From positions 1-54,934 of the forward strand of contig JABHCP010000016.1 in assembly GCA_018673485.1 (NCBI GenBank): a stretch of DNA of 54,934 bases, given 5' to 3'. Positions 2,219-54,934 of this stretch are shown piece by piece. Source of the DNA: Candidatus Uhrbacteria bacterium (GTDB lineage Bacteria > Patescibacteriota > Patescibacteriia > UBA9934). The notes under the pieces were generated by a model. It did no database searches and had not been told where the DNA came from. It saw nothing but the letters and a program-made list of their open reading frames with translations. Every line of letters starts with the position of its first letter. The stretch's first letter is position 1. Both the position numbers and the translations under genes were made by a program.

Positions 2219-2247
2219 TTGACAAAAGGCGTTTTTTCTGCTATAGT
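2219..2247 (+). promoter_or_regulatory. Sigma70-type promoter TTGACA-17-TATAGT of accessory unit A
   Basis: TTGACA 2219-2224, TATAGT 2242-2247. Confidence 0.8.
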
Positions 2248-2316
2248 TACTGGCTTTCTCGATCTCGAGACAAGCTCCCCCAAGCACCTGGGAGACCCCC
2301 AGGGAAAGGCTCAGCA

Positions 2317-2907
2317 ATGAGCACCGACAGCAAGACCGTCCTCAACGCCCTCCAAGCCCTCATCGAAACGGCCGCCGCAGGAACCAACCCGCGGATCAAC
2401 GCCGAGTACGTCGAAGGCATGGTACGAGTGAAGCCCGACGGCACCAACCGAGGCAGCTACGTCGAGGGCGTGAACACCCTCGAGGCCACCAAGCGGCTCC
2501 TGGAGCAGCTCGGGTGGACGCTCGTGGCCCACGAAGACCTGCCCGAAGGTGTGGCCTTCCCGCCGGCGTCCTACTTCTGCGCCGAACTACCCGAGGGAAT
2601 GACAGCGCGCACCGGGATGATCCTCTACAAGGATCTCTCGGGCGAGCAGAAGAGCCAGGTCCAACTGGTCGAAGGCGACCACGGTCCCGAGATGGTGCTC
2701 CGGTGGTCTGGCCCCCTGGCCACCACCACCCAGGTCTGGGCCATCATCGGAACAGACGGCTGGATGCTCTGGTCGTGGTACCCCGCGCCCCTCGCGCCCC
2801 GGTACAACGGGCTCTTCGACGCCCTGCGAACCCTCTTCCGCGGCGAGACAATTGACCACGAGAGCATGGCCAAGATCGAAGCCCTGCCCGTGAAGTTGCT
2901 CTGCTAG
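2317..2907 (+). CDS. Accessory GC-rich protein of unknown function (197 codons incl. stop)
   Basis: Starts MSTDSKTVLN...; own promoter; strong composition shift from flanks (2401-2460 is 38/60 G+C). Confidence 0.8.
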   Translation: MSTDSKTVLNALQALIETAAAGTNPRINAEYVEGMVRVKPDGTNRGSYVEGVNTLEATKRLLEQLGWTLVAHEDLPEGVAFPPASYFCAELPEGMTARTGMILYKDLSGEQKSQVQLVEGDHGPEMVLRWSGPLATTTQVWAIIGTDGWMLWSWYPAPLAPRYNGLFDALRTLFRGETIDHESMAKIEALPVKLLC

Positions 2908-3096
2908 CAGCACCGGAGCTCGTTGACTCCTTAAAAACAACCATCGCAGCAAGCTATGCGCGCTGCACATGGGATAATCGATTGTTGGCACAAACCAACT
3001 GGAACATCGATTAATCAAAGACCTAAAAATCCAACAGATCCAGGTATGTACCTGTCGATCAACCGGATAAGGCAAACACCCAAAGTTCCCAACGTA

Positions 3097-3125
3097 CCCT
3101 GCGATTCGTATCGTAGGGTTCTTTA
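3097..3125 (+). terminator. Hairpin CCCTGCGAT-tcgt-ATCGTAGGG followed by TTCTTT
   Basis: 9-bp perfect stem and short T-run. Confidence 0.55.
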
Positions 3126-3137
3126 GTTGCAAAGCAA

Positions 3138-3166
3138 AAGAACTGAGATGAGCCCAGTTCTTTTAA
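3138..3166. terminator. Bidirectional hairpin AAAAGAACTG...CAGTTCTTTT
   Basis: Perfect 10-bp inverted repeat with A/T tails. Confidence 0.65.
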
Positions 3167-3182
3167 ATATCAAAGTTCAAGT

Positions 3183-3668
3183 CTACTTAACGTATGTTGA
3201 GATTGTATAGAAGCTGCAATTAAGTCCATCATCAAAGCAAACATCAAATGCACCCCTCCAAGTACCACTCTCCAATGCTACTGCGTGGAAAGTTACGGTC
3301 GATCCACCAACTGGCACATCAGTTAATAGTGTATGTGTATATGTTCCATCATCAAGCAAAAATGCATCAGAAAAATCTGGGGTTGATGATGTAATTGCTA
3401 CTCCTTCCAAATATGTTGCTCCAATATCAATACTGTGCAAAATTTGAGTCTCATCAGCGTCATGTGTGATTGTTGCCACTACATCAAACTCCTCTCCCAC
3501 ATCAACGGCAGATGGCACACTAATACTCGCCTCCGGAATGGAATCATACTCTCCCCATGAATAATCATATTCAGCTGAGTCGTCAGAGCTCCACTCATAG
3601 GACTTTTCGCAACTCGCTCCCATTAACACTAGAGCGAACACGCTCATCAATAGTACTGCTTTTTTCAT
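3183..3668 (-). CDS. Secreted putative lipoprotein, unknown function
   Basis: MKKAVLLMSVFALVLMGASCEKS lipobox-like signal peptide. Confidence 0.75.
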   Translation of the reverse strand: MKKAVLLMSVFALVLMGASCEKSYEWSSDDSAEYDYSWGEYDSIPEASISVPSAVDVGEEFDVVATITHDADETQILHSIDIGATYLEGVAITSSTPDFSDAFLLDDGTYTHTLLTDVPVGGSTVTFHAVALESGTWRGAFDVCFDDGLNCSFYTISTYVK

Positions 3669-3733
3669 AATACTTTGTTTATAATTATCTTAAATATTAT
3701 ACAAGAGACTCACAACGTCTGAAAGCCCGCTTA

Positions 3734-4753
3734 TTAATAAGTGTAATCCTGCTCATCAATCTGATCGAAGAGAAAGATTTGAGGCTCAGAGCCATAATCT
3801 TCACGCCAAATATCAGCAATCTCTGTGTACGATGCAAAAACAACATTTTCCTCGTCTTTGATGCCATTGAGCATTCTAATAATCTCAGCGGCTTCTGTTG
3901 CTCCACCAAAAAGACTTGATTGTGGAATTGGGATAGCGGCAGTAAGCATCTGATTCTCTACTCTGCCGTCGTCGATATACTTCAATAGTACTTTTATATA
4001 ATCAGCCTCGGTCGCAAATAAATTATCGTTTCGTCTCCCATTGCGATTCGCGTGTGGACCAGAGCCGATCGTTATCATTCGTCCCTCAAAATCATGAACT
4101 GTGAAGTCGTCCCCAGTGCCGGCTGGAATCCAGACACCTGACGTAGCGTCATCATCACTAAAATCTCCCAGATGATGATTGTACCCAACTGCACCACTAA
4201 TTATCTCGGGGCAAAAAGTAAAATCTGTGTGCGTATCCCCTTGCTGGCATGCATCGAATTCCTCAAACTGAGGCTCGTAATCCCAAACAACACCAACCAT
4301 GTCAGTAATATCATCAGTGACTAATTCACCGACGTATCTTGTATCTGCATAATTATATTCACTCTTCCAATCCCAGGCACCCTCGTGATGAGGATCAATT
4401 TCAAAGTCATATTCGTCAACCAAGAACTGAACAACGTTCTTTCCATCAGTTAATTCCTGCATTTCACCTGTCTCGCAGTTCAACACACCTTCAAAATATT
4501 GATAAGAAGCTTGCAGATTTAACTTATAACCATTCTCATGCAAGATACTTGAAAACTCCAACAATCGATCGCGATAGTCCTCATAAGGAAGACAACTTGT
4601 ATAAATGTCACCCTCCTCGATATGCGCCATCAACGTTACATAAACCTTTGATTCTGGCTCCTGATCCTTCTGCATTAAAAATGCAGCCAGAAAACAAAAA
4701 ACGATCAATACGATCGCGACACTTGTAAAAATATATATCTTCTTCATACCCAC
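3734..4753 (-). CDS. Membrane-anchored/exported hypothetical protein, possibly polysaccharide-deacetylase-like fold
   Basis: N-terminal TM; VYVTLMAHIEEGD...LLEFSSILHENGYKLNLQASYQYFEGVL pattern; fold assignment is tentative. Confidence 0.6.
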   Translation of the reverse strand: MGMKKIYIFTSVAIVLIVFCFLAAFLMQKDQEPESKVYVTLMAHIEEGDIYTSCLPYEDYRDRLLEFSSILHENGYKLNLQASYQYFEGVLNCETGEMQELTDGKNVVQFLVDEYDFEIDPHHEGAWDWKSEYNYADTRYVGELVTDDITDMVGVVWDYEPQFEEFDACQQGDTHTDFTFCPEIISGAVGYNHHLGDFSDDDATSGVWIPAGTGDDFTVHDFEGRMITIGSGPHANRNGRRNDNLFATEADYIKVLLKYIDDGRVENQMLTAAIPIPQSSLFGGATEAAEIIRMLNGIKDEENVVFASYTEIADIWREDYGSEPQIFLFDQIDEQDYTY

Positions 4754-4786
4754 ACATTGTATCGCCTATGAAGCGTTTAGAGAAGC

Positions 4787-5266
4787 TCAGCCAAAACGTA
4801 ACTTTTGTGCACCGGTGTAGGCTACAGCTAGTGCGTCTGCGGCGTCATCTGGCTTTGGTATTTCATTTAATTTAAAGATTGTCTTAACCATCTCCTGCAC
4901 CTGTTGTTTTTCTGCTTTTCCATAACCAGTGACTGCGACCTTAACTTCGTTTGGCTTCACTCCTATAACTTGAATGCCTGATTTTGCTGCTAGGTATTGA
5001 ATCATGCCACGCACCTCCGCTACCTGCAAAGCAGTTGTGGTACTTTTTGCAAAAAATAACTCCTCAAGCGCCAAGGCTTGAGGCTTAAATGTATCAATAA
5101 GCTCCTGAACGTCTCGACCAATCTCGAGCAATCGAACCTCAAAATCCAAACCAGCGTCAGAGGTCATTACACCATGATGAACACATTCCCAATCCCTACC
5201 TTGCAGCTCAATAACTCCAAAACCACAACGACCATAGCCTGGATCGATACCCAAAACTCTACTCAT
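4787..5266 (-). CDS. ruvC: Holliday junction endodeoxyribonuclease RuvC
   Basis: VLGIDPGYGRCGFGVIE, LALEELFFAKSTTTALQVAEVRG, DDAADALAVA. Confidence 0.95.
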   Translation of the reverse strand: MSRVLGIDPGYGRCGFGVIELQGRDWECVHHGVMTSDAGLDFEVRLLEIGRDVQELIDTFKPQALALEELFFAKSTTTALQVAEVRGMIQYLAAKSGIQVIGVKPNEVKVAVTGYGKAEKQQVQEMVKTIFKLNEIPKPDDAADALAVAYTGAQKLRFG

Positions 5267-6281: not shown

Positions 6282-6295
6282 ATTCCAATCGTAAT

Positions 6296-7012: not shown

Positions 7013-7027
7013 AAATGATAATTATAG

Positions 7028-7112
7028 TATGCAGTAGACAGTATGCAGTATGCGGTTCACCTTAATTCGATCAACTGCCTACTGCATACCGCCTACTGTA
7101 TACTGTTTTTAC
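7028..7112. repeat. Inverted repeat built of 'GCAGTATGC / GCCTACTGCATAC' units, probably also a terminator for yebC or rpoC
   Basis: agtatgcagtagacagtatgcagtatgcgg ... ccgcctactgtatactgttttt; left and right arms complementary. Confidence 0.6.
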
Positions 7113-7147
7113 AAACAAACCGGCGCCCTCAATAGGCGCCGACTTAT

Positions 7148-11191: not shown

Positions 11192-11202
11192 ATGATTGTG
11201 CC

Positions 11203-14651: not shown

Positions 14652-14681
14652 AGTATATCAAAGTACTGTATGTTTAGTCAA
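14652..14681 (-). promoter_or_regulatory. Candidate rpoBC promoter TTGACT-18-TATACT, giving a ~210-nt leader
   Basis: Minus-strand reading of AGTATA 14652-14657 and AGTCAA 14676-14681. Confidence 0.6.
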
Positions 14682-14716
14682 ATGACGGCAGCAGATAACA
14701 GCATTCCAAAAGCCGT

Positions 14717-14846
14717 CATCCCGAGCGAAGCCGAGGGATCTGCGTCAGTAAATAGCATTATTCCATACGCGGTCATCCTGAGCGAAATTATATTGTCGCC
14801 AGGCGAAGCCTGGCCCGGCTACGCCGGGAAGGATCTCGAGAATGAA
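14717..14846. repeat. REP-like repeats GTCATCCcGAGCGaagcCGAGGGATCT and GTCATCCTGAGCG...GGATCTCGAG
   Basis: Two related imperfect palindromes read directly. Confidence 0.6.
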
Positions 14847-15080
14847 GTTTCGAGCCCCACGTTCCCTTCCACTCCTCCCATGAACTGCAGGGCAAGGACA
14901 CAACGTCTACCAAACCAATGCTAGTGCACAAGAGGAGAGAAATCCCTATCTATAACAGGGAACGTGCAGACACTGACCTGAAAGCCTGCGCCTCACCCCG
15001 CAGTTTATGAGAAAAGCCTACAAGTACTTACCTTATGCCTGTATAATAAATCATTTCACACACCTTGAACATGTGCACAA

Positions 15081-15109
15081 TTGCATGAATGGGTTCGTCA
15101 TGCTAGATT
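15081..15109 (+). promoter_or_regulatory. Promoter TTGCAT-17-TAGATT of accessory unit B
   Basis: 17-nt spaced hexamers upstream of a GGAG-preceded ATG. Confidence 0.5.
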
Positions 15110-15155
15110 GAATCGTCTCCCACACCCGTTGGGCGATTGCCCCAAAGGAGCCAGC

Positions 15156-15668
15156 ATGGCACGCGATGCCGAGCAAAGCCCCGAAATCACCATCAAAGTC
15201 GGTGGTCTCTCCATCACAGCGCCAAGGCACGAGATTGGTGACACGCTCAACCAACTCACCCAGAGCGCTGACACGCTAGAGCTTGATTTCAGCGCCTCGA
15301 GCAATCAAGGTTGGGCCCTAAAAATGATGGAACTGCTGATAGAAAGACAGCGGGTCATCTGCTACTTGATGCGGCCGATCGGTGACCTTGAACTCTCAGA
15401 CGCCACACGCGCCATGATTGAGGGTCTCAACCTCATCGACGCGCCTCAGTGGGTCGTTCTAGACAGGTTCACCAATGCCAGAGCATGCGACTCGACCTCT
15501 GAAGCCACTCTCTACACTAGGCTGGCGGAAAAAGTCATGCGCGAGCTAGGCTATCAGAATACATGGGAAATTCGCTGTGCGATTATGGCCATCTCTACGG
15601 TGAAGATCCTTGAAGCTCGCAGCGCCCACGGAAGCCGCATCCTGCAAAGCCACCACACTCACTCGTAG
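15156..15668 (+). CDS. Accessory GC-rich protein of unknown function
   Basis: GGAG Shine-Dalgarno; MARDAEQSPEITIKVGGLSITAPRHE; GC-rich island; own terminator. Confidence 0.75.
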   Translation: MARDAEQSPEITIKVGGLSITAPRHEIGDTLNQLTQSADTLELDFSASSNQGWALKMMELLIERQRVICYLMRPIGDLELSDATRAMIEGLNLIDAPQWVVLDRFTNARACDSTSEATLYTRLAEKVMRELGYQNTWEIRCAIMAISTVKILEARSAHGSRILQSHHTHS

Positions 15669-15688
15669 AGCCATACACCTACACACGA

Positions 15689-15714
15689 ACCCCGCGTTCC
15701 TTGAAACGCGGGGC
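15689..15714 (+). terminator. Hairpin CCCCGCGTT-ccttga-AACGCGGGG of unit B
   Basis: 9-bp GC-rich stem. Confidence 0.75.
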
Positions 15715-15725
15715 TTACTGCTTTC

Positions 15726-21876: not shown

Positions 21877-21905
21877 TTTTCAAGCTCTTTCATGTAATCT
21901 ATTGT
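21877..21905 (+). promoter_or_regulatory. Candidate promoter TTTTCA-17-TATTGT of the PP2C unit
   Basis: 17-nt spaced hexamers. Confidence 0.4.
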
Positions 21906-21931
21906 CAGACCGTGAAACAACTGGAGGAATC

Positions 21932-22693
21932 ATGTCCCTTAGACTCGACATCGGTGTGGTATGCGACATTGGCGGAGCTGACCCCCAAAAAGGCAATGAA
22001 GATACCTACTTCATCTATCTACCCGCACACGCCATTGGTGTAATCGATGGGATGGGAGGACCAGGCGATGGCAGATTGGCTGCAGATATGGTGAGCACAG
22101 CCTTCCAAGGTCTAATGCACATCGAGGAGCCCGATGAAAGCATACTGGCAGCCGCTGTTCGCGATGCCAATAGCCGGGTATTGCGAGCCAACAAGACCGC
22201 GCGACGCAAGCCTGGAAATCGTATGGGCGCTGTTGGTACCATCGCTTGGATTGATGTGCGAACAGGCACAACCCTAATCGCCCAAGTTGGTGACTCACGT
22301 GCCTATGTGCACAGCGATGGTTCTATCGAACAAAAAACCGTCGATCAAACACCTTTGGCTGGAATGAACGAAGCCCAGCGCATGTGCCACCCGCACAAAC
22401 ATCACATCCAATACGCGTTTGGGCTAAAGGAACAATTACCTGCTGATTATTACCAGATCAGTCTTACTCCAGGAGACACGCTCCTCCTATGCTCAGACGG
22501 GCTTACGGACTATGTTGGATCTACAACGCTCATCCGTATACTCGACATGGACGTAAGTGCGCAGAAGATTGCATACGAACTCCTCAAAGAGGCACTTAGA
22601 TGCGGTACTTGCGACAATGTGACAGCAATCGTCGTCAAGGTGCTGCCCGATAAAAGTCTTGCAGGCGCTGGACAAACACTCTGTCCCGTATAG
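21932..22693 (+). CDS. PP2C-family Ser/Thr protein phosphatase (accessory GC-rich unit)
   Basis: GNEDTYF, GVIDGMGG, VGDSRAYVH, LLLCSDGLTDYV, CDNVTAIVV; GGAGG Shine-Dalgarno. Confidence 0.9.
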   Translation: MSLRLDIGVVCDIGGADPQKGNEDTYFIYLPAHAIGVIDGMGGPGDGRLAADMVSTAFQGLMHIEEPDESILAAAVRDANSRVLRANKTARRKPGNRMGAVGTIAWIDVRTGTTLIAQVGDSRAYVHSDGSIEQKTVDQTPLAGMNEAQRMCHPHKHHIQYAFGLKEQLPADYYQISLTPGDTLLLCSDGLTDYVGSTTLIRILDMDVSAQKIAYELLKEALRCGTCDNVTAIVVKVLPDKSLAGAGQTLCPV

Positions 22694-22710
22694 CAGACGC
22701 TACGCAACAC

Positions 22711-22743
22711 GACCCCGGACTGTCTGACGACACTTCGGGGTTT
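22711..22743 (+). terminator. Hairpin ACCCCGGa...tTCGGGGTTT of the PP2C unit
   Basis: GC-rich stem followed by T's. Confidence 0.65.
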
Positions 22744-22755
22744 CATGCAACCAAA

Positions 22756-22784
22756 AAATCAGGTTTCCCTGATTTTTTTTGCTT
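22756..22784 (-). terminator. Hairpin AAAAATCAGG-ttt-CCCTGATTTTTTTT, efp terminator
   Basis: Stem with A/T flanks. Confidence 0.7.
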
Positions 22785-22804
22785 TGATTGACTTGTCGAT
22801 CCAC

Positions 22805-24833: not shown

Positions 24834-24869
24834 AATTCACATAACTGACGATCGTCAGTTATGTGAATT
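24834..24869. repeat. Perfect 36-bp dyad AATTCACATAACTGACGATCGTCAGTTATGTGAATT
   Basis: 18-bp arms fully complementary, CGATCG centre. Confidence 0.95.
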
Positions 24870-24933: not shown

Positions 24934-24969
24934 GTTTCACAATGTGAACGATCGTCCACATTGTGAAAC
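24934..24969. repeat. 36-bp dyad GTTTCACAATGTGAACGATCGTCCACATTGTGAAAC (one mismatched pair)
   Basis: CGATCG centre, exactly 100 bp from the previous centre. Confidence 0.95.
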
Positions 24970-25079: not shown

Positions 25080-25162
25080 TTTCTATTTCTCAGATTTCTG
25101 GTCTAAAAGCACGAAACCGCCCACCGAAGCGAGAGGCTTCAGGGACGGTGAGTTGTTCGGAG

Positions 25163-25471
25163 CTAGGTCCTGTAAAAAACCACGCTGATCACAGCTATGG
25201 AAATAAGGATACTCGCGAGCATACTCCAGAACATCAATGTATTTTTGGTCTTGATGCCCACGAGAGTGAATACGATCTGGATCACACAGAAGATCGCCCA
25301 CATCGGGATCGAAATAGCCCGCACATCCTCGGCGATGATCACATCTTTGAGCTGTGGCACGAGTGCGATGGGGTTGAGGATCGTAATCAGACCAGATACA
25401 CGGTTGAAGTACCTGTGCTCCAAGGGCCAAGTCAGCCAGCGATAGAGTCTATCGATGAGCCTTTCGCTCAT
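25163..25471 (-). CDS. Small multi-TM protein, PQ-loop/SemiSWEET-like (accessory unit)
   Basis: NPIALVPQLKDVI...SIPMWAIFCVIQIVFTLVGIKTK; GGAGG Shine-Dalgarno; promoter TTGACA (25524-25529)-17-TACTCT (25501-25506). Confidence 0.65.
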   Translation of the reverse strand: MSERLIDRLYRWLTWPLEHRYFNRVSGLITILNPIALVPQLKDVIIAEDVRAISIPMWAIFCVIQIVFTLVGIKTKNTLMFWSMLASILISIAVISVVFYRT

Positions 25472-25500
25472 GGTTCACCTCCAGTGAAGTTCGACGTTTG

Positions 25501-25529
25501 AGAGTACTGCATTTTGACGGAAATGTCAA
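25501..25529 (-). promoter_or_regulatory. Promoter TTGACA-17-TACTCT of the PQ-loop unit
   Basis: Minus strand; -35 lies in the small dyad TTGACatttccGTCAA. Confidence 0.6.
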
Positions 25530-25571
25530 TCACTAGACCAAAACGCGCTTCTCGACTATTATTCACATCGT

Positions 25572-26756: not shown

Positions 26757-26786
26757 TTGACAAAAAGCCATTTTTGTGTTTAAATA
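26757..26786 (+). promoter_or_regulatory. Promoter TTGACA-18-TAAATA of the SLT unit, -35 inside hairpin loop AAATGGC-ttgacaaaaa-GCCATTT
   Basis: Hexamers and stem read directly. Confidence 0.7.
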
Positions 26787-26822
26787 CTCAGTCTTTCGTT
26801 CCCCCTACAACCTGGAGTGATC

Positions 26823-27902
26823 ATGAACAAGGACACGCTCATCCGCATTGGCGGCCGCCTGTGGGCAGCCGTCATCAAGTACACCCCCATCGTCATCGGT
26901 GCCATCTGGTGCTTCCTGCGCAAGTGGACACCCATCATGTGGTCCGCGCTCGTGAGCTGGAGCTGGCGCTTCATGTGTTTCGTTGGTCGATTGATCCGCA
27001 CCACGGCCATCAGCCCTCTGCGTGGCAGCCCCAAGGTCTGGCTCTTCGGAGCTACCTGGGGAGTCCTCTGCACTGGTATCGCCGTATTGTGCTTCACCGT
27101 CTTCTACGGTCCGGTCGAAAACCCGATCACCAAGGATTCGCTGATCGCCACCTGCGACATCGAGGATGGCCCGGAGGAGTGCGACGAGGACGGCCCGGAA
27201 GCCCCAAAGGCTCGCTCGCTCGTTCGTGGTATCGAACCCAACGAAACGCAGTACGTGCTCAAGCAGTACAATGAGTTCGTGGGCAACCCCACCTGGGCCA
27301 AACGTACCAATGACTGCCTGACCGAGTACTGGCACTACTTCGAGGACGCGGAGCGCTTGACCCGATACCCTGCCGAGCTCATCGCTGGCATGTCGCTGAT
27401 CGAGGCCGAAGGCTGTCAGTTCATCCCTGCCCGAAACGGTGACGGTGGCATCGGCCCAATGCAGATCACTGGCTACCCCGGTAGCGGCATCATCAAGCGC
27501 GCAGCCAAGATCCTCAGCATCTCGGAAGGCGAGGTGGATTACAAGAACGACTACCTCCACAACGTGGTGGTCGGAACCGCGATCCTCGCCAACTACGAGA
27601 GCCAACTGCAGAGTCGCGGCCCGGGTCTCTTGGCCTATAACCGTGGGCCAGGGAACGTCCGCAAGGACATGCGTCGCGCCAAGCTCACCAGCCTGAAGCG
27701 CCGCGTGCTCTCGGATTTCCGTGGAGCGATCCCCTACAGCGCCGGGCGCGGTGGCAAGCCGCGGATCTACGCAGACAAGGTCTTGGCCGGCATGGTCATG
27801 ATTGACCGCATGTCGCGTGGCCTCACACTGAACACACTCTCGAGCCTAGATCTCGACGAAATCCCTGGATCCGACCCGTCCCAAGACGGTAAGAACCGCT
27901 GA
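26823..27902 (+). CDS. Membrane-anchored lytic transglycosylase, SLT-like domain (accessory GC-rich unit)
   Basis: N-terminal TMs; LIAGMSLIEAEGC, GIGPMQITG, GLLAYNRGPGNVRK. Confidence 0.85.
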   Translation: MNKDTLIRIGGRLWAAVIKYTPIVIGAIWCFLRKWTPIMWSALVSWSWRFMCFVGRLIRTTAISPLRGSPKVWLFGATWGVLCTGIAVLCFTVFYGPVENPITKDSLIATCDIEDGPEECDEDGPEAPKARSLVRGIEPNETQYVLKQYNEFVGNPTWAKRTNDCLTEYWHYFEDAERLTRYPAELIAGMSLIEAEGCQFIPARNGDGGIGPMQITGYPGSGIIKRAAKILSISEGEVDYKNDYLHNVVVGTAILANYESQLQSRGPGLLAYNRGPGNVRKDMRRAKLTSLKRRVLSDFRGAIPYSAGRGGKPRIYADKVLAGMVMIDRMSRGLTLNTLSSLDLDEIPGSDPSQDGKNR

Positions 27903-27926
27903 GATCGTTGACCAATCGAGACTCTC

Positions 27927-27958
27927 CGACCTCCGCCCACTTCGTGGCGGGGGTCTTT
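27927..27958 (+). terminator. Terminator of the SLT unit (CCGCCcacttcgtgGCGG...tcttt)
   Basis: GC hairpin downstream of stop. Confidence 0.65.
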
Positions 27959-27964
27959 GCATTC

Positions 27965-27991
27965 AAAAAAGACCTTTTTGGGTCTTTTTTT
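27965..27991. terminator. Hairpin AAAAAAGACC-ttttt-GGGTCTTTTTT, ychF terminator
   Basis: Perfect stem and T-run. Confidence 0.75.
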
Positions 27992-28006
27992 ACTTTCTTT
28001 GATATT

Positions 28007-29089
28007 TTATACACCTACGCGGAAGTGGCAGACGTCTCCATCTTGGACAACGTACTCTTTTCCTTCTACACCCATCTTTCCAGCTTCGCGTGCGCCGGCT
28101 TCGCCTTTGTATGTTTCAAAATCTTCGTAGTGAATTACCTCGGCACGGATGAATGCACTTTCAAAATCTGTATGAATCACTCCAGCGGCCTGAGGAGCTA
28201 ATGAACCTTTTTTAACTGTCCAAGCTCGTGTTTCTTTTTCCCCAGTAGTTAGGAAAGTGACCAACTCAAGCATTTCATAACTTTTTCTAATTACCTTATC
28301 GAGGCCTGACTCACCGATACCAAGCTCCTGCAAGAAATCAGCAGCTTCCTCGACGGTTAGAGTAGACAACTCAGCTTCGATCTTTACCGAAATTGGAATT
28401 GCAATCTGTCTTTCACCCAAAGGTGACTTCCAATCGTGATTTTTTATAGTTTCCTCGTCAACGTTCACGATGTACAGAATCTTCTTTGTGGTTAAAAGCC
28501 GCATGTCGCGCAAAGCATCACGTTCTTTATCACTTAACTCAACCGTAATCGCGAGATTGCCATCATCAAGTGCCTCCTTATACTTACGCAACCCAGAAAC
28601 CTGCACGAGCAGCTCTTTATCTTTTGTACTTTCTGCTTTTTTCTCAATTGACTCAAGGCGCTTATCAACCACTGCAGAGTCGGCCATCATTAATTCCATT
28701 TCAATAATCTCACTATCGCGTGCCGGGTCAATACTTCCATCAACATGCGCAATATCACCGTCATTAAACTCACGAACTACGTGCGCGATCATGTCGCACT
28801 CACGAATGTTGGAAAGAAACTTGTTTCCAAGCCCCTCACCCTTGTGAGCACCTTTGACTAAACCTGCGATATCGACGAATTCGATAGCCGTAGGAATGAT
28901 CTTCTCTGAACCAGAAAAGTCAGACAAAACCTTCAAACGGTCATCTGGAACTTCTACTATTCCAACGTTTGGCTCAATTGTACAAAACGGAAAATTAGCA
29001 CAATCTACTTGCTTCTTGGTAAGTGCAGTAAATAATGTCGATTTGCCTACATTTGGGAGCCCTACAATTCCTACTTTTAACATACGCAA
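28007..29089 (-). CDS. ychF: Redox-regulated ATPase YchF
   Basis: VGIVGLPNVGKSTLFTALTK; NFPFCTIEPNVGIV. Confidence 0.96.
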   Translation of the reverse strand: MRMLKVGIVGLPNVGKSTLFTALTKKQVDCANFPFCTIEPNVGIVEVPDDRLKVLSDFSGSEKIIPTAIEFVDIAGLVKGAHKGEGLGNKFLSNIRECDMIAHVVREFNDGDIAHVDGSIDPARDSEIIEMELMMADSAVVDKRLESIEKKAESTKDKELLVQVSGLRKYKEALDDGNLAITVELSDKERDALRDMRLLTTKKILYIVNVDEETIKNHDWKSPLGERQIAIPISVKIEAELSTLTVEEAADFLQELGIGESGLDKVIRKSYEMLELVTFLTTGEKETRAWTVKKGSLAPQAAGVIHTDFESAFIRAEVIHYEDFETYKGEAGAREAGKMGVEGKEYVVQDGDVCHFRVGV

Positions 29090-29136
29090 AGAAGTCTACC
29101 TGATTATAAAGCACTTGAAAAGCGCTTGATCTCCAA

Positions 29137-29165
29137 TTGACAAAGAGCTAAAATCAGGCTAATGT
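29137..29165 (+). promoter_or_regulatory. Promoter TTGACA-17-TAATGT of the caspase-like unit
   Basis: Hexamers read directly. Confidence 0.7.
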
Positions 29166-29202
29166 CCCTTCTTCGCCCCTTCAACCCCCACCGGAGATCA
29201 AT

Positions 29203-30405
29203 ATGATCCACACCATGCTTCTGACCCTGTGCCTCGCTATGTCCTCTGTGGCCCTTGGGCAGGAGGATGAGATGCCCGGTCAGCTCGACATCCAAGAGCT
29301 TGAAAGCGCACAACAGCTCGACCCGAGCCACGAAATCGAACCAGAACTCATTGCCGCGCTCGAAGAACGGGATCCGAAAACGTTCGCTCTGCTGGTTGGA
29401 ACTTCCAGCTTCCGGCACCTCGATGAACTTTCGCGACCCGACGCAAAAACGCTGTGTTTTGCCAGTGCGCTGTCGCTGTACAAATCGATCCCCACCGGAG
29501 ATGTGATCGCATTGTGCGAACCAGAGGACGCAATTCGGGCTCAGATCATCGCCTCGGCTACGCAGATTCGCGATCGAGCACAAGCGGGAGACACAATCCT
29601 GTTCGTATTCATCGGCCTAGGTGTCGGTAGCGACTTTGACGAGCCGACATTTTTAACCCATGACATGACGCCACTTAGCGACCAGCTACAAGCAACGTCT
29701 ATCGGGGTAGATGAAATGGTCTCAAGCCTACGTAAGGATAATGTAAAACTGATCATGGTGCTCGATGCCTCGATCGATGCTACCCTTACATTGAGCTCAG
29801 GTGGCACCCTTGTTACTACAGGCCCTATTGCCTCGAACATTTCAGGCAAACACCTGACAATCTCTTATAGTGCCAGTCCTCGTGAATGGCAACTGGATGA
29901 GAATTTGTTCGGCCGTACGCTAGCCGACGGACTCGCTGGCGCCTCTGACCTGGATCAGGACAGCCAAATCTCGGCCGCTGAGCTCAAGAGCTTCATGGTG
30001 ATGCAGATCGATGCGCACACCAGTAAGTCACTTGGCTTGCGTGGTGAGTGGAACGATTCGACCGAGCCGTTCCTGACGCTACCCACCCCCGAACCGATCG
30101 TCGAGGTCATCGAACCACGCTCCTGGCGTCCCAGTGCACCACCCGCAATGCGCAAGATCGTCATCATTGGTGGTAGCTCCATGCTCGCGACAGGTGCGGT
30201 GACCTACGCCCTGGCCTGGCGCTCACAAAACCAATTGGAAGATCTGCACTACAACAACCAGTCTGAGTACAACTCGATGGTGTCGCAGCGCAACGCACTT
30301 CTCTGGACCAGTCGTGGTACCGGCGCCCTCGGCGCTATCGCGCTCGGTGGAGGGCTCATCCTTCACCCGCAAGGTGCAACCGTGAGCGTCACCGCTCGCT
30401 GGTAA
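29203..30405 (+). CDS. Secreted/membrane caspase-fold (C14-like) protein, apparently lacking the catalytic dyad, with EF-hand-like segment and C-terminal TM
   Basis: FALLVGTSSF, DTILFVFIGLGVG at the SGHG position, IMVLDASID at the DAC position, DLDQDSQISAAEL EF-hand-like loop, MRKIVIIGGSSMLATGAVTYA TM. Confidence 0.7.
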   Translation: MIHTMLLTLCLAMSSVALGQEDEMPGQLDIQELESAQQLDPSHEIEPELIAALEERDPKTFALLVGTSSFRHLDELSRPDAKTLCFASALSLYKSIPTGDVIALCEPEDAIRAQIIASATQIRDRAQAGDTILFVFIGLGVGSDFDEPTFLTHDMTPLSDQLQATSIGVDEMVSSLRKDNVKLIMVLDASIDATLTLSSGGTLVTTGPIASNISGKHLTISYSASPREWQLDENLFGRTLADGLAGASDLDQDSQISAAELKSFMVMQIDAHTSKSLGLRGEWNDSTEPFLTLPTPEPIVEVIEPRSWRPSAPPAMRKIVIIGGSSMLATGAVTYALAWRSQNQLEDLHYNNQSEYNSMVSQRNALLWTSRGTGALGAIALGGGLILHPQGATVSVTARW

Positions 30406-30423
30406 CACCAAACTCGAACTCAA

Positions 30424-30463
30424 ACGCCCGGACTCTCACTCGAGAGGCCGGGCGCTGTTTTTT
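30424..30463 (+). terminator. Hairpin GCCCGGactctcactcgagaggCCGGGC-gctgTTTTTTT
   Basis: GC stem and T-run. Confidence 0.85.
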
Positions 30464-30487
30464 TAAAAAAATAATGGAAGGCTATTA

Positions 30488-30525
30488 ATTTTCATGATTG
30501 GTTCGATCGAACCAATCATGAAAAT
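30488..30525. repeat. Perfect 38-bp dyad ATTTTCATGATTGGTTCGATCGAACCAATCATGAAAAT
   Basis: 19-bp arms, CGATCG centre. Confidence 0.95.
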
Positions 30526-30572
30526 AATGTTTTTAAAGAGCCGTATTACGACGGCTCCATTATTCATATCAT

Positions 30573-41387: not shown

Positions 41388-41467
41388 TTATAGCAAATAT
41401 TGGCTCTGGGCCCTACTACCTGTGGAGAACTCCATTTATTCTTTGTCTACGCCTTGCTAGACAAGCA

Positions 41468-41483
41468 GATTTCACGTGAAACG
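41468..41483. promoter_or_regulatory. parS-like site GATTTCACGTGAAACG (13/16)
   Basis: Core TTTCACGTGAAA intact. Confidence 0.6.
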
Positions 41484-42039: not shown

Positions 42040-42040
42040 T

Positions 42041-42056
42041 AGTTTCACGTGAAACA
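42041..42056. promoter_or_regulatory. parS site AGTTTCACGTGAAACA (15/16 to TGTTTCACGTGAAACA)
   Basis: Direct match to the ParB-site consensus. Confidence 0.8.
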
Positions 42057-42134
42057 TGCGTCGTAAAACATTACACATCGCTGTTGAAGCAACAAAATTA
42101 CGATGGTGGTATAATATCACAAAACCAAAATACT

Positions 42135-44722: not shown

Positions 44723-44758
44723 AAAACACCCCGCTCGGAGCACCGAAACGGGGGCAAG
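44723..44758 (-). terminator. Terminator of the small accessory unit (CCCCGTTtcggtgctccgAGCGGGG-tgtttt)
   Basis: Minus-strand hairpin plus T-rich tail. Confidence 0.65.
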
Positions 44759-44778
44759 ACTCTCTCACAATGCACACT

Positions 44779-45066
44779 TCACACAGTAACGAAGAATCGA
44801 TGTGTGAATTTGTTACCATGGCGATCTTTCCACCTCACGACACAAGGAAACGAATTATCGAGGTCAGAAGGACTTATCACTTCAACTACAATCTCACTGC
44901 AGTCATCGCGCTTGAGCGCCACTGCAACAGCCTTGAAGACGTGAGCATTCACCCCCTCTAAATCATCTTGTACACAAGCACACTCTCGAATCGCATCGTG
45001 AGCTGCCGACGCCATACTATAGGCCCAGATAGATCCAAAATCGATCTGACTCCATTCTCTAGACAT
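44779..45066 (-). CDS. Small accessory protein of unknown function
   Basis: GGAG Shine-Dalgarno; promoter TTGACT (45137-45142)-17-TAATCT (45114-45119); flanked by 15-bp direct repeats. Confidence 0.65.
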   Translation of the reverse strand: MSREWSQIDFGSIWAYSMASAAHDAIRECACVQDDLEGVNAHVFKAVAVALKRDDCSEIVVEVISPSDLDNSFPCVVRWKDRHGNKFTHRFFVTV

Positions 45067-45146
45067 GATTAACTCCTTGGGATATTGACTTACACATGAA
45101 GAGTGTAGGTAGTAGATTAATCAATAAAAATTAAAAAGTCAATCCA

Positions 45147-45176
45147 AAAACACCCCGCTCGATGAAAAGGGTGTTT
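45147..45176 (-). terminator. rnhB terminator AAAACACC...GGGTGTTTT
   Basis: Inverted repeat with T-run. Confidence 0.75.
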
Positions 45177-45184
45177 TGAAATAC

Positions 45185-45790: not shown

Positions 45791-45799
45791 ACGCAATAA

Positions 45800-45828
45800 T
45801 TGACAAAATTGCCATTTTTTGATAATTT
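45800..45828 (+). promoter_or_regulatory. Promoter TTGACA-17-TAATTT of the NYN unit, -35 inside hairpin GCAAT-aattgacaaa-ATTGC
   Basis: Hexamers and stem read directly. Confidence 0.7.
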
Positions 45829-45855
45829 ATTCAGTCCCCACGAAGGAGAAAAACC

Positions 45856-46371
45856 GTGTCAGACCTCGAACGCGTCATGATCTTTGTCGATGGCTCCAAC
45901 CTGAGCTCTGCTCTGCGAAAACTGAGGGCAGAACAAGTACTTTATCTACCGATGTTCAGACAGATGTGTGCCGAGGTCTCCGGTAGGCCCATGGCTGTGC
46001 ACTACTTTGACAGCACATCACCTGGCCCAAAACGAGATACTCGCATCACACTTTTTCGTGCGCTCGCTCGCATACCCAAGGTCCATCTCCATATCCACGA
46101 AAGAGTTGCAAATGGAAACAGCTCGCAAGAGCGTGGCGTCGATGTTGACCTAGCTGCCCACATGACATTGTTGGCGAGCACCGACCAGTTCGATATCGCA
46201 ATCCTTGTAAGCGGCGACCAAGACTTCGTGCCGGTGGTAAAGTTAGTGCGGGATATTGGAAAACGCGTCTTCATTATCACTGGCGGACACGGAGCCGCGC
46301 AGTGCTACCATGATGACAACTACTTCGTCCACCTGGAACAAATCCTACGTGATATGCGCAAAAGCGCATAA
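45856..46371 (+). CDS. NYN/LabA-like domain nuclease (GTG start; accessory unit)
   Basis: VMIFVDGSNLSSALRK; RGVDVDLAAHMTLLAS; ILVSGDQDFVPVVKLVRDIGKRV. Confidence 0.85.
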   Translation: MSDLERVMIFVDGSNLSSALRKLRAEQVLYLPMFRQMCAEVSGRPMAVHYFDSTSPGPKRDTRITLFRALARIPKVHLHIHERVANGNSSQERGVDVDLAAHMTLLASTDQFDIAILVSGDQDFVPVVKLVRDIGKRVFIITGGHGAAQCYHDDNYFVHLEQILRDMRKSA

Positions 46372-46384
46372 GCTCACTTCCTCG

Positions 46385-46403
46385 CAACCCGCCACAGCGG
46401 GTT
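46385..46403 (+). terminator. Hairpin CAACCCGC-caca-GCGGGTTG of the NYN unit
   Basis: 8-bp perfect stem. Confidence 0.75.
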
Positions 46404-46425
46404 GTCATGCTTTCCGCGTTTCTCA

Positions 46426-46800: not shown

Positions 46801-46801
46801 A

Positions 46802-49369: not shown

Positions 49370-49402
49370 ATAGATAGATTTTACTTGATTTTTGCTAAAA
49401 AA

Positions 49403-49606: not shown

Positions 49607-49608
49607 AA

Positions 49609-50101
49609 AGTGATCCGCCCGGCATCCATGAGGACGCCGGGCGGGTGGAGAGACGCGAGAGGAACGAGGTCCGCTCACATCAAGGAGGGTGAGATCAGGT
49701 GGTCGCCAAGACGATGGCGCGCGTGGGGGGGGACAAGCGGGCGCAGGACCCGACAACCACCTGATCTCGAAATGTAGGACCGGACCAACAAGCTCAAGAG
49801 CTCATCGGCGACAGCGAGCATCCGGCGAACCGGGGGAGTCTCGCTGCAGAAGGGCTGCGCGACAAGAGGATCGCGCGCCGTGCATCGTTCAGCCGTAGCT
49901 CCGTAGAGCAAGCGGCCCGGTCCAGGGTCGTAAGGAGTCTGCAGCGAAGGGGAGGCTCGAGGTTCCCCTTACCCTCATCCGGGCGCGACTCGCACGCTGT
50001 CGATATTCCTTAACCCTTCGTGACAGCACACGTGAAACGCGCGGGATCACGAATTTCTAAATCTGCTCCAAGATAGTGCCATAAACTACAAAACACGTCA
50101 A
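49609..50101 (-). ncRNA. Candidate ~450-nt structured RNA of unknown class
   Basis: End closure GTGATCC.../...GGATCAC; 13-bp perfect stem GAGATCAGGTGGT/ACCACCTGATCTC; CAGCGAG/CTCGCTG and AAGGGGA/TCCCCTT stems; minus-strand promoter TTGACG (50096-50101)-17-CACTAT and hairpin-TTTTT at the other end; no good ORF. Confidence 0.45.
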
Positions 50102-50105
50102 CAAT

Positions 50106-50134
50106 AAAGGACTCGCGTTTTACAGCGAGCCCTA
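50106..50134 (-). terminator. Terminator GGGCTCGC-tgtaaaa-CGCGAGTCC-TTTATT of the DUF3307-like unit
   Basis: Minus-strand stem and T-rich tail. Confidence 0.65.
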
Positions 50135-50155
50135 CGACGAGCGATGCACGGGTCG

Positions 50156-50533
50156 TTAGATCAGCCCCGACAAGATCAGGCCCAAGTCCACTGCAACGTG
50201 GCAGAACTGATCCATCTTGATGGTCTTGATGATGTTATAGCGGGCCTTGAGCGCATCGATCACCATGTGCGAGACGATCCTGATCACAAGTGCCAGTGCC
50301 GTCATGCTAAAGCTCAGTGCCAGACTCACACCAGGCACGATACTGAGCTCGAAGCTTGGCATCAGCCAGAGCAGCATGATCGGCGCATTGGCAGTGACGG
50401 CGTGGTAAAAGAGCACTTCACGTGATTTACCCTTTTCCATCGCCATCCATGCGCTTTGCAGACCAAAGTCCCCCCACACGAACAGAAGGTACATGACAGT
50501 CAGCTTAACGAGAACGAGCAGAGCGAAGTCCAT
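50156..50533 (-). CDS. DUF3307-like membrane protein (accessory unit)
   Basis: WGDFGLQSAWMAMEKGKSREVLFYHAV and SHMVIDALKARYNIIKTIKMDQFCHVAVD; GGAGG Shine-Dalgarno. Confidence 0.65.
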   Translation of the reverse strand: MDFALLVLVKLTVMYLLFVWGDFGLQSAWMAMEKGKSREVLFYHAVTANAPIMLLWLMPSFELSIVPGVSLALSFSMTALALVIRIVSHMVIDALKARYNIIKTIKMDQFCHVAVDLGLILSGLI

Positions 50534-50663
50534 GAATACCTCCTGGTACGCACATCATTGTGCACTCAAACCATCTCATGGATCATATACACCGCCCAGA
50601 GTATCTGTCGTCATTTTCGACACTTTTTGACGTGTCAGCAATATTGCATTATCCTTATACTAT

Positions 50664-51434
50664 ATGCATATGGGATACAACGATCACTTACTTGCCGGAC
50701 TCGAGACTTATGGACTGTCTAAAAAAGAGGCAGAGATTTATCTTTCAATCCTGCACCTTGGGCCAGCAACTGTTTTGCAAATATCACGCAAAACGCAGTA
50801 TCCAAGAACCACACTTTACCCAATATTAGACATATTGGTCGCCAAAGGCGTCCTAAGATCAGGAAAAGATAAAAAGAAAACAGTATTCGCTGTTGAACCG
50901 CCAAAGGTGCTTCGCCGCAAATTAAAGGAAAAGGAAGTCGCATTTGATGATATCTCCTCAGAACTAGGTGCTTTGTATGACCACGTGGCCGCGAGCCCAG
51001 ACATTATCCTATACGAAGGAACGGATGGCTTTAAACGCCTATGGCAAAGAATCTATAACTCTGAGGTGAAAGAATACAGAATACTAACGAGTGCCACCGG
51101 CATGCTCGAATACGTGAAAGTGCCATATATTATTAAAAGTGTTATCGCAAGGCGCATCGAGCTAGGCATCAAAAGCCTGCAGATTGTTCCAGACAATCCT
51201 GAAACTCGCCGAATTACACAGCACGATAAAAAGCAGCTGCGCGAATCTCGTTTTTTACCCAATAACACCAACATTCCAGCAACAATCATCCAATTCGGTG
51301 ACGAAATAGCGTTCATGACAACTCGGCGGGAGAACGCAATGATAATCATGGCCAGTGGTGACGTTGCGCTAACTTTTAAAACAATGTTTGACCTTGTTTG
51401 GAAATGCGCCAAAAATCCTTATTCTGAGATATAA
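50664..51434 (+). CDS. TrmB-family winged-helix transcriptional regulator
   Basis: LLAGLETYGLSKKEAEIYLSILHLGPATVLQISRKTQYPRTTLYPILDILVAKGVL. Confidence 0.85.
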   Translation: MHMGYNDHLLAGLETYGLSKKEAEIYLSILHLGPATVLQISRKTQYPRTTLYPILDILVAKGVLRSGKDKKKTVFAVEPPKVLRRKLKEKEVAFDDISSELGALYDHVAASPDIILYEGTDGFKRLWQRIYNSEVKEYRILTSATGMLEYVKVPYIIKSVIARRIELGIKSLQIVPDNPETRRITQHDKKQLRESRFLPNNTNIPATIIQFGDEIAFMTTRRENAMIIMASGDVALTFKTMFDLVWKCAKNPYSEI

Positions 51435-51443
51435 TGTACACAT

Positions 51444-51665
51444 ATGCAATACACACAAAAATCACTCGAGCAGTACTTTGCAGAGCATGGCGTAACCGAC
51501 GCTGATGCAAAGGCAAAACTTTTACCACTCATCACAGACCTTATCTATGATCGCAATATGCATGTTGTAGAGCTGGAAAAAGAAGAGGACGAGTATAAGA
51601 TCAAACAGATCCAAGAAGGGATTACGGACCTGGAAGATGAAATCAAACGTCAATTCGAAAATTAG
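51444..51665 (+). CDS. Small conserved-looking hypothetical protein
   Basis: Tightly spaced between the TrmB-like gene and gpmI, probable operon. Confidence 0.65.
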   Translation: MQYTQKSLEQYFAEHGVTDADAKAKLLPLITDLIYDRNMHVVELEKEEDEYKIKQIQEGITDLEDEIKRQFEN

Positions 51666-51668
51666 ATT

Positions 51669-53237: not shown

Positions 53238-53267
53238 CAATGCGCAGATCAAAAAAATTAAAAACCA

Positions 53268-53353
53268 CCCATTCCGAGCTCTGCGAGGAATCCCGCTGTT
53301 TACGTCAACGTTCTATCAATACGCACGGGATCCTTCGCTCCGCTCTGGATGGA
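53268..53353. repeat. REP-like imperfect palindrome CCATTCCGAGC...GGAATCCCG ... CGGGATCCTTCGCTCCGCTCTGGATGG
   Basis: Long inverted arms read directly. Confidence 0.65.
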
Positions 53354-53398
53354 TTCTTATAGCTAATTTCAATACCACTTAAATTTTTATAAACGAAA

Positions 53399-53433
53399 AG
53401 CCGCCTTATGTCAGGCGGCAGACTAGCCAGATG
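53399..53433 (-). terminator. Terminator GCCGCC-tgacataa-GGCGGC-TTTTCGTTT
   Basis: Minus-strand stem and T-rich tail. Confidence 0.75.
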
Positions 53434-53440
53434 GCCAGTA

Positions 53441-53848
53441 TCAAACGGCGAGCGCCTCTGCGAGCTCAGAGCTGAGCGAGTGCCAGAAGCTCCCGACCTC
53501 GAGGTCAACGACCCTTCCGATCAGGAGGGTCCTGCACGAGCGCGAGCGATGCGGCCGCAAGATGTGCAGGGAGACGTCACCGAGAATGAACACGTCTGCC
53601 GTGCACTCCCCGACTTTTCTCACTGCCGTGCCACGCACTGCGCTCCCTGGCATGGTCACGCGGAAGTTGAGCCGGGGAAGCCCATGGTGCGCCGACCGAA
53701 CCTCATCGACCGTGCAGCCGAGGCTATGAAGCTCTTCCGCGATATCCTGCCACACGAGATCACCGTGCGCAGTTACATCGAAGAAACAGTGGGTAACAAC
53801 CCACAACCCTTCGTCTTTCTCGACAGTTGTCGTAGGATCTCCGCTCAT
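53441..53848 (-). CDS. Accessory GC-rich protein of unknown function
   Basis: GGAG upstream of start; promoter TTGACA (53918-53923)-17-TATATT (53895-53900); own terminator. Confidence 0.7.
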   Translation of the reverse strand: MSGDPTTTVEKDEGLWVVTHCFFDVTAHGDLVWQDIAEELHSLGCTVDEVRSAHHGLPRLNFRVTMPGSAVRGTAVRKVGECTADVFILGDVSLHILRPHRSRSCRTLLIGRVVDLEVGSFWHSLSSELAEALAV

Positions 53849-53894
53849 CGCATGCTCCTTGGTGCATGAAGTTATTGAAACGAGTCAACGAAGT

Positions 53895-53923
53895 AATATA
53901 GCAAAAAAACAGGCCTTTGTCAA
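53895..53923 (-). promoter_or_regulatory. Promoter TTGACA-17-TATATT with -35 inside the loop of the xth-remnant terminator
   Basis: AAAAAAACAGGC...GCCTGTTTTTTT stem surrounds TTGACA. Confidence 0.8.
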
Positions 53924-53975
53924 TACTTTCGCCTGTTTTTTTGACTAATGTTTGCCTATTTATTTGAAATACTCC

Positions 53976-54170
53976 CTACACCTTTGCATCAATTATAATA
54001 GCCACTGGGTAATGATCAGATCCGTATACGTCCGTCATAATCATCGCGTCTTTGATTTTTGACTCAAGGCGCTTGTCGGCCCAGAAGTAGTCAATGCGCC
54101 AACCAACATTGCGCTCTCGTGCACGCGTAATTACGTCCCACCACGAATACATGTCTCGTTTTTTGTGAAT
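53976..54170 (-). pseudogene. xth: C-terminal fragment of exonuclease III, 5' part replaced by an accessory unit
   Basis: KKRDMYSWWDVITRARERNVGWRIDYFWADKRLESKIKDAMIMTDVYGSDHYPVAIIIDAKV; upstream reading runs into a terminator. Confidence 0.8.
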
Positions 54171-54173
54171 AAA

Positions 54174-54202
54174 AAAAGCCGCCCACCGAGGTGAGCCGAT
54201 AG
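54174..54202 (-). terminator. Terminator of the M23/TM unit (GGCtCACCtcGGTGgGC...GGCTTTTTTT)
   Basis: Minus-strand hairpin plus T7. Confidence 0.7.
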
Positions 54203-54234
54203 GCAGCTCAGCTTCTCGTGGACGACACGTACGA

Positions 54235-54381
54235 TTACCCAGCAACGCTCTGCAGGAATAATTGCGCGATGCCCAGCAGAATAAGAGTTAGTGACAAGAA
54301 CATTATGACTGCGGTCTGACATCCGATGATTACGCTTGTTCCGCTATACCACACGATCATCTGTACTTTTCTACCCATCAT
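54235..54381 (-). CDS. 48-aa single-TM small membrane protein overlapping the M23 stop (absent from ORF track)
   Basis: MMGRKVQMIVWYSGTSVIIGCQTAVIMFLSLTLILLGIAQLFLQSVAG; ATGATGGGTAG overlap. Confidence 0.55.
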   Translation of the reverse strand: MMGRKVQMIVWYSGTSVIIGCQTAVIMFLSLTLILLGIAQLFLQSVAG

Positions 54382-54934
54382 GACTTTGCTCCTGCCAGTG
54401 TCTTACATTAAAGCGAGGTTTCAGGCTCATAAAGCCGAATGCTCCGCGGCCGTCATCACTCATGAACGCCATGAAGTGAAGATGGTCACAAGAGGTCCAG
54501 CCCGTCTTACCAGTTCGGGCAATAGGCTGGCCTGCGCTCACATGATCACCAACGTGAATATCGAACTCACGTTCTGATCCCCGCGCCAGATGACAGTACT
54601 GAGTCCAGTAATGGTACTCGGGTGGTCCGGAGTGATGATGCGTACGCCACGTATGGTGCGCGATCGTAATGAAGTTGAGATGATCAGCAAACTCGGGACT
54701 AGGCCCCCAGATATCAGAGCTAGTCACAATCTCCTCCACGCGGCCCATATCAGCCGCGCACACTACGGTTCCGTCTGGCACTAAGAAGTCGACAGCGTAA
54801 CGATAGGGACCAATGTGGCTCGCTGGACTCTTGCAACACAGGAATGGACCCACTTGAAACAGAAGTTCTCGGCGAAGACCCTTAGCAAGCTCATGTGCTC
54901 GCTCTTGCAAATTCAGGTCATTATGAAAAGGGAC
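54371..54934 (-). CDS. M23-family metallopeptidase-like protein, frame open at the window edge (likely partial)
   Basis: PYRYAVDFLVPDGTVVCAADMGRV, YWTQYCHL, VGDHVSAGQPIARTGKTGWTSCDHLHFMAF; reading frame open to 54934. Confidence 0.85.
   Translation of the reverse strand, partial: VPFHNDLNLQERAHELAKGLRRELLFQVGPFLCCKSPASHIGPYRYAVDFLVPDGTVVCAADMGRVEEIVTSSDIWGPSPEFADHLNFITIAHHTWRTHHHSGPPEYHYWTQYCHLARGSEREFDIHVGDHVSAGQPIARTGKTGWTSCDHLHFMAFMSDDGRGAFGFMSLKPRFNVRHWQEQSHDG

Follow-up and report, generated by a model that had tools for sequence, protein, structure and literature searches.

GC-rich single-gene units among AT-rich housekeeping genes of a Candidatus Uhrbacteria genome: probable members of a second, genome-wide gene class

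Phage morons, or lysogenic conversion genes, are single genes that carry their own promoter and terminator and deviate in composition from their surroundings. Gene-finding models likewise recognise a minority of 'atypical' (horizontally acquired) genes with distinct codon usage, as in the island class described below. Surveys of bacterial and archaeal genomes in which leaderless and Shine-Dalgarno (SD)-led initiation are mixed describe a TA-like signal about 10 nt before leaderless starts and SD motifs on leadered genes (PMC3160421, PMC5397173), and the ornate RNAs GOLLD, ROOL and OLE are large, strongly structured and non-coding (PMC12286853). Here we analyse eleven units, I1 to I11, which punctuate the core genes of a 54,934-nt stretch from a Candidatus Uhrbacteria bacterium (GenBank assembly GCA_018673485.1, contig JABHCP010000016.1), hereafter the window. 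The window is an entire contig (C16) of a genome (G000) of 1.03 Mb that is 99% complete. This genome holds two gene classes, AT-rich housekeeping genes and short, GC-rich, fast-changing accessory units, and we consider it likely, with a probability of roughly 0.7, that the islands are those members of the second, genome-wide class of Candidatus Uhrbacteria that happen to lie in the window.

Composition and expression signals of the two classes

Two codon-usage models, one for core genes and one for the units, were trained on the window, and genes were called with our own caller on the window and on a further 325 kb of the genome, from other contigs (380 kb together); the contigs outside the window are independent of the training. 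On these contigs the G+C content at third codon positions (GC3) was bimodal, with a peak at 0.36-0.44, a valley at about 0.52 and a second mode at 0.6-0.9, and the codon log-odds split the two classes cleanly. Outside the window 41 more island-class genes were found, which gives about 12 per 100 kb with the window included; from this density we estimate about 130 island units in the whole genome. Typical GC3 over the 380 kb was about 0.39 for core genes and about 0.72 for the island class, whose median protein length was 140 amino acids (aa) against 298 aa for the core and of which 96% were monocistronic, against 42% of core genes. The initial annotation had described, among housekeeping genes, autonomous units of one gene each that deviate in composition and carry a promoter, SD and terminator of their own, and this pattern extends genome-wide in the sequence sampled; the six promoters it quoted are present at the positions it gave, and its counts of 38/60 G+C in a unit and 18/60 in rpoB are exact. 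Of the eleven units it took to be GC-rich, I7 at 44.8 kb has the signals but a GC3 of only 0.44.

In island genes GC is raised at all codon positions, in the 5' leader and in the first 50 nt downstream, and C exceeds G on the coding strand. Such a profile would suit GC-biased gene conversion, or transcription-linked mutation, acting on accessory genes that recombine frequently or are differently transcribed, so that the class would have no special function. The offset also persists while core GC varies, as such a process would allow; on its own, however, it leaves the linked SD and promoter types unexplained, and we hold this explanation to be doubtful.

Expression signals played no part in defining the island class, which was done by codon usage alone. 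An SD of at least 4 nt precedes 33 of the 47 island genes (11.3 in shuffled sequence) and 29 of the 212 core genes (26.5 in shuffled sequence; Fisher p=3e-14), and SD motifs in the core are therefore at chance level. An exact TTGACA lies within 150 nt upstream of 21/47 island genes and of only 2/151 core lead genes (p=2e-13). For the nine of the eleven units that were scorable with flanks in the window, the counts were 8/9 against 5/31 core genes for the SD and 6/9 against 1/31 for TTGACA. One consensus is common to the island promoters, ATTGACAAAA.....TTTTT.TGcTA.A.T, of the sigma70 type with the -10 element TGcTATAaT, and a C-rich leader follows it. Among 22 strict matches to this promoter, 11 lead to island genes and one to a core gene, and the other 10 have no called gene downstream; several of these 10 are GC-rich. 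A raw promoter scan did not exceed shuffled sequence (24, 29 and 32 matches, with 34, 31 and 23 expected); only when sites are considered relative to gene starts does the signal emerge. The idea of a class-specific promoter is rejected, TTGACA-N-TGnTA being a general sigma70 promoter that is found through most of the phylum, with 1 to 75 matches per genome across the order. The anti-SD is intact at the 3' end of the 16S rRNA, and of the sigma70 region-4 matches in the genome three lie above the cut-off and one below.

The core lead genes carry a different signal. In 21 of them the first base of a TATAAT-like hexamer is at -15 or -14, and between -16 and -9 such a hexamer is found in 29 core lead genes, against a background of 6.2 from other positions, and in none of the island genes. 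A signal about 10 nt upstream is the mark of leaderless genes in the survey PMC3160421, and the core class, with SD at chance and a -10 hexamer predicted to place the transcription start site (TSS) on the start codon, answers to this description. The core lead genes are thus probably largely leaderless, and for this reason the two classes would differ in transcription start and in translation initiation, 70S/leaderless in the one and 30S/SD in the other. In contrast to the mixed-initiation surveys, the split here follows compositional and evolutionary class (core versus accessory) and not operon position. We found no description of such a two-class split in Patescibacteria in the open-access literature searched.

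As read from the DNA, each unit has the make-up of a self-contained transcription unit, located in an intergenic slot among core genes, in which SD motifs do not exceed chance. Its build would be a sigma70 promoter ATTGACAAAA-N5-TTTTT-N-TGcTATAaT, a short leader rich in C, in most cases a strong SD, a single short open reading frame (ORF) or structured RNA, and usually an intrinsic terminator. A promoter and a terminator had been assigned to nearly every unit; I1, however, has no terminator within 120 nt, and the promoter of I11 is not visible because the contig end cuts the unit.

The same division was observed in relatives, which were sampled as stretches. In 419 kb of a sister genome of the same genus (G001) there are 28 island-class genes with GC3 of 0.74 against 0.33 in the core; SD motifs precede 20 island genes (chance 6.9) and 21/236 core genes (chance 24), and the core genes have a -10 peak at -15/-14/-12. 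Family-wide, about 72% of high-GC3 genes have an SD and core genes are at chance, and in AT-rich family members TTGACA precedes 11/15 high-GC3 lead genes. More distant families gave small samples or no compositional contrast; in several cases the same promoter precedes SD-led secreted or lipoprotein-like genes. That the islands are assembly chimeras, or contamination from a GC-rich organism, is barely credible: the window is a contig of a metagenome-assembled genome with an estimated contamination of 2.6%, but in other assemblies units have the same core genes as neighbours and the pattern of promoter, SD and GC recurs across the family.

Conservation, turnover and origin of the units

The matching slots of G001 hold homologs of I3 (37% identity), I5 (51%), I6 (46%), I8 (28%) and I9 (73%), and the flanking core genes are mostly 60-88% identical. 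The initial annotation had taken the units for moron-like cassettes and had named synteny with vertical inheritance as what would speak against this; such inheritance was found for these five, whereas I1, I2, I4, I7, I10 and I11 are absent from the matching slots. I1 has a relative at 41% identity in one other genus (G003, L022), where it is GC-rich too, and the I4 slot in G001 is 278 bp long. The rpsF-methyltransferase (MTase) slot, where I4 lies in the window, contains GC-rich genes of 500-575 aa, kinase-like by eye, in L142 (G016), L146 (G007) and L075 (G002). Outside the window, 0/41 island genes were found in the G001 sample as compared with 93/192 core genes, which indicates fast turnover or divergence. 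The empty G001 slots did not yield exact insertion borders, as the intergenic DNA is too diverged to align.

Three units can be followed further. Homologs of I5 occupy the MTase-ychF slot in G000, G001, G003 and G004, the slot being empty in several other genomes, and in G010 the homolog adjoins the MTase gene. I6 homologs occupy the ychF-TPR slot in five genera (among them in G001, G005, G008 and G009); six further genomes have an empty slot of 36-130 bp. Trees of I5 and I6, with long branches, are consistent with a multi-gene core tree, I6 evolving much faster. I9 lies divergent beside a TrmB regulator gene in 8/8 Uhrbacteria examined, even where the pair sits elsewhere in the genome; its clades are shared with those of TrmB, and nearly all the named relatives from a species-wide scan belong to Candidatus Uhrbacteria. 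Over eight genomes the GC3 of I9 follows that of the core with a slope of 0.75, r=0.93 and a mean offset of +0.32. Because of this tracking, the high GC of I9, and by extension of the old units, appears to be maintained rather than to be a trace of recent import; a gene of its age should have lost a donor's composition, yet its GC follows that of the host, which suggests that something holds the offset. The regression also rules out a gene pool of constant composition. Some units are old, fixed in place, fast-diverging and about 0.3 in GC3 above the core, and most others are lineage-specific.

These results bear on recent horizontal import, according to which the units are genes of GC-rich bacteria, hosts for example, which brought promoter, SD and terminator with them and have yet to ameliorate. 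The composition shift at all codon positions, with Lys down and Arg up in the proteins, would be expected of such genes, as would the absence of the 41 island genes from the G001 sample, the many proteins without a known family and the lipoprotein repeats in L051. Against it, I5, I6 and I9 are old units that have stayed in place and remain GC-rich; the units shared with G001 are no nearer to core composition (GC3 0.50-0.80) than the others (0.44-0.87), so that a donor-fixed composition drifting to that of the host with age is not what the window units, few as they are, display; the promoter is uniform across units; and donor relatives were not found. In the same way the old, positionally stable members differ from 'atypical' genes in that their composition persists and tracks core GC, and the promoter type is shared. 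We regard recent import as a possible account of the whole class, though one that falls short of an even chance.

An origin as phage morons, or as remnants of prophages or plasmids, is very improbable, and largely refuted for I3, I5, I6, I8 and I9. The units are predicted to be autonomous transcription units as morons are, and PHROG matches, otherwise to generic domains, include one 'moron' membrane family for I9 (DUF3307) and lysis-type families for I11. However, single-protein searches, made for some of the units, found no relatives of useful similarity in phage or plasmid records, and the sole match in scans of viral contigs was a weak, partial one for DUF3307 at 36%. None of the units searched has a phage or prophage location or close phage relatives. 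Unlike morons, the units stand without phage context in chromosomal slots with core housekeeping genes on both sides, and several are vertically inherited in conserved position across genera. Nor do they resemble anti-phage defence genes: PADLOC gave seven families, with one protein each and mostly unnamed candidate models plus NYN, and the units are mostly single and not in defence clusters.

Several points weigh against a genome-wide second class as the source of the islands. The class models were trained on the window islands, and for this reason the codon-usage statistics of the window, namely GC3 of 0.50-0.87 in the nine scorable units and 0.33-0.47 in 31 core genes (Mann-Whitney p=7e-6), are circular. 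The -10 signature is found in only 19% of core lead genes and is weaker outside the genus, and TSSs, leaderlessness and termination are predictions. TTGACA precedes only 2/17 high-GC3 lead genes (12%) in family members near 50% GC, and in GC-rich relatives composition cannot separate the island class. The I5 and I6 trees rest on few taxa with long branches, and for the lineage-specific units import from GC-rich donors may apply.

Products and candidate structured RNAs

Forty-seven island proteins were compared with Pfam, PHROG, NCBIfam and PADLOC. A minority have known domains, none of which occurs in more than one protein, and most proteins have no family; neither a family nor a homolog was found for I2, and no homolog for I10. 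Besides the PP2C phosphatase, lytic transglycosylase, NYN, DUF3307 and M23 peptidase products of the window, the genome encodes DUF488, pentapeptide-repeat and CAAX protease-like proteins in this class, and L051 contains Asp/Ala/Thr-rich lipoprotein repeats. The AlphaFold model of I1 is of low confidence. That of I6 is too (pLDDT 55); its Foldseek matches are MALT1, metacaspases and GSU0716. In the alignment the catalytic His and Cys of I6 appear to be replaced, with GLG and DASID at the motif positions of the window protein and the Cys replaced in all five, and the His-Cys dyad of caspase-like peptidases is thus not found. A leaning of the products towards envelope and signalling functions, as proposed initially, is weak, transmembrane-like segments being found in 43% against 36% in the core. 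Judged from the few domains, the products are probably an accessory set that serves the surface, signalling and interaction with neighbours.

A GC-rich unit without an ORF, missed at first, lies at 49610-50065 on the minus strand. Its 456 nt fold with z=-8.4, no shuffled sequence folds as well, and a strong terminator stands at its end; it has no Rfam covariance-model match and no convincing relative among 73 genomes of the order. On contig C20 there are three tandem ORF-less stretches (L062 3315-3580, 3655-4442 and 4536-5132; z -4.3, -7.2 and -3.7), each with a strict island-type promoter before it and a similar terminator at its end; the first two have a common 3' domain, 88 nt long and 90% identical between them, and none of the three has an Rfam match. 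A further large GC-rich ORF-less stretch is L022:2340-3060; z over such stretches ranges from -3.7 to -8.5, and none is in Rfam. Coding controls gave z mostly from +2 to -3, with one at -4.8. Dispersed GC-rich repeats, for example L063:8095-8634, also give strong z, and folding alone is therefore no proof of an RNA. We consider the ORF-less stretches to be candidates for large structured RNAs. The comparison with GOLLD, ROOL and OLE concerns manner of working only; unlike these, the units here have no Rfam match, are known from folding and not from covariation, and are so far lineage-specific in Uhrbacteria.

Table 1. Coordinates and signals of the units and associated features in the window
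Feature	Position	Strand	Description
I1	2219-2907	+	Promoter TTGACA-17-TATAGT (2219); gene 2317-2907, 196 aa, GC3 0.87; no known family
I2	15081-15715	+	Gene 15156-15668, 170 aa, GC3 0.65; SD AAAGGAG; terminator ~15688-15715
I3	21902-22790	+	PP2C phosphatase 21932-22693 (Pfam PP2C), GC3 0.50; SD CTGGAGG; terminator 22753-22778
I4	25100-25540	-	Small membrane protein 25163-25471, 102 aa, GC3 0.70; SD GGAGGT; upstream promoter TTGACA-17-TACTCT
I5	26757-27990	+	Promoter TTGACA-18-TAAATA (26757); lytic transglycosylase-like gene 26823-27902 (Pfam SLT), GC3 0.80; terminators 27928-27990
I6	29137-30465	+	Promoter TTGACA-17-TAATGT (29137); gene 29203-30405, GC3 0.62, for a caspase-like protein with a hydrophobic C-terminal segment; GC-rich terminator ~30422-30463
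I7	44725-45142	-	Promoter TTGACT-17-TAATCT (45142); gene 44779-45066, 95 aa, GC3 0.44 (not GC-rich); SD AAGGAG; hairpin 44744-44725
I8	45800-46415	+	Promoter TTGACA-17-TAATTT (45800); NYN-domain gene 45856-46371 (Pfam NYN), GC3 0.57; SD GAAGGAG; terminator past stop
ORF-less GC-rich unit	49610-50100	-	Possible promoter TTGACG-17-CACTAT near 50095; structured candidate RNA ~50065-49610; terminator 49644-49615
I9	50108-50560	-	DUF3307 membrane protein 50156-50533, GC3 0.73; SD AGGAGGT; terminator 50133-50108; divergent from TrmB gene 50664-51434
I10	53400-53923	-	Promoter TTGACA-17-TATATT (53923); gene 53441-53848, 135 aa, GC3 0.71; terminator 53419-53400
xth 3'-end duplicate	53986-54163	-	178 bp, 90% identical to intact copy on contig C5; rearrangement scar adjoining I10 and I11
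I11	54176-54910	-	M23 peptidase 54371-54910, GC3 0.53; terminator 54209-54176; 5' end off contig

Other features and biological meaning

The xth duplicate (and L171) marks a rearrangement that broke the Nudix-xth-gpmI order present in G001; an ordinary insertional knock-out of xth is ruled out by the intact copy on C5. I5 and I6 (26757-30465) flank ychF, possibly by coincidence; according to work cited in PMC12641178, the ychF product is reported to promote leaderless mRNA translation. Long near-perfect palindromes of 28-48 bp, many centred on CGATCG, lie at 24834-24869, 24934-24969 and 30486-30527 and at about 15 more sites on other contigs, and are frequent in this genome and rare in the relatives sampled. 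Dispersed intergenic repeats were seen at 14670-14900 (translating PSEAEGS) and 53254-53352 (also on contig C5). Two GTTTCACGTGAAAC sites, possibly parS-like, lie at 41465-41482 and 42042-42059 near a tRNA-Arg gene.

If the islands belong to a second gene class, their own signals would let the units be gained, lost and moved independently of the signals of their neighbours, and could allow expression of the accessory class apart from that of the core. The high GC would then be held by some selective or mutational process and not come from recent import alone. It is an unlikely, speculative extension that Uhrbacteria run two expression systems, a leaderless, SD-free housekeeping one and an ever-renewed accessory programme of short proteins and large structured RNAs, and that a global shift in initiation could toggle the cell between maintenance and host interaction. 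Taken together, SD, TTGACA promoter and GC3 are a simple handle in the sequence by which the accessory repertoire, most of it without a known family, can be told apart from the housekeeping genes in an uncultivated, reduced bacterium. As the offset in old, positionally stable genes is not readable as recent transfer, caution is called for in composition-based calls of horizontal gene transfer in Patescibacteria, and the cause of the maintained GC offset becomes a testable puzzle.

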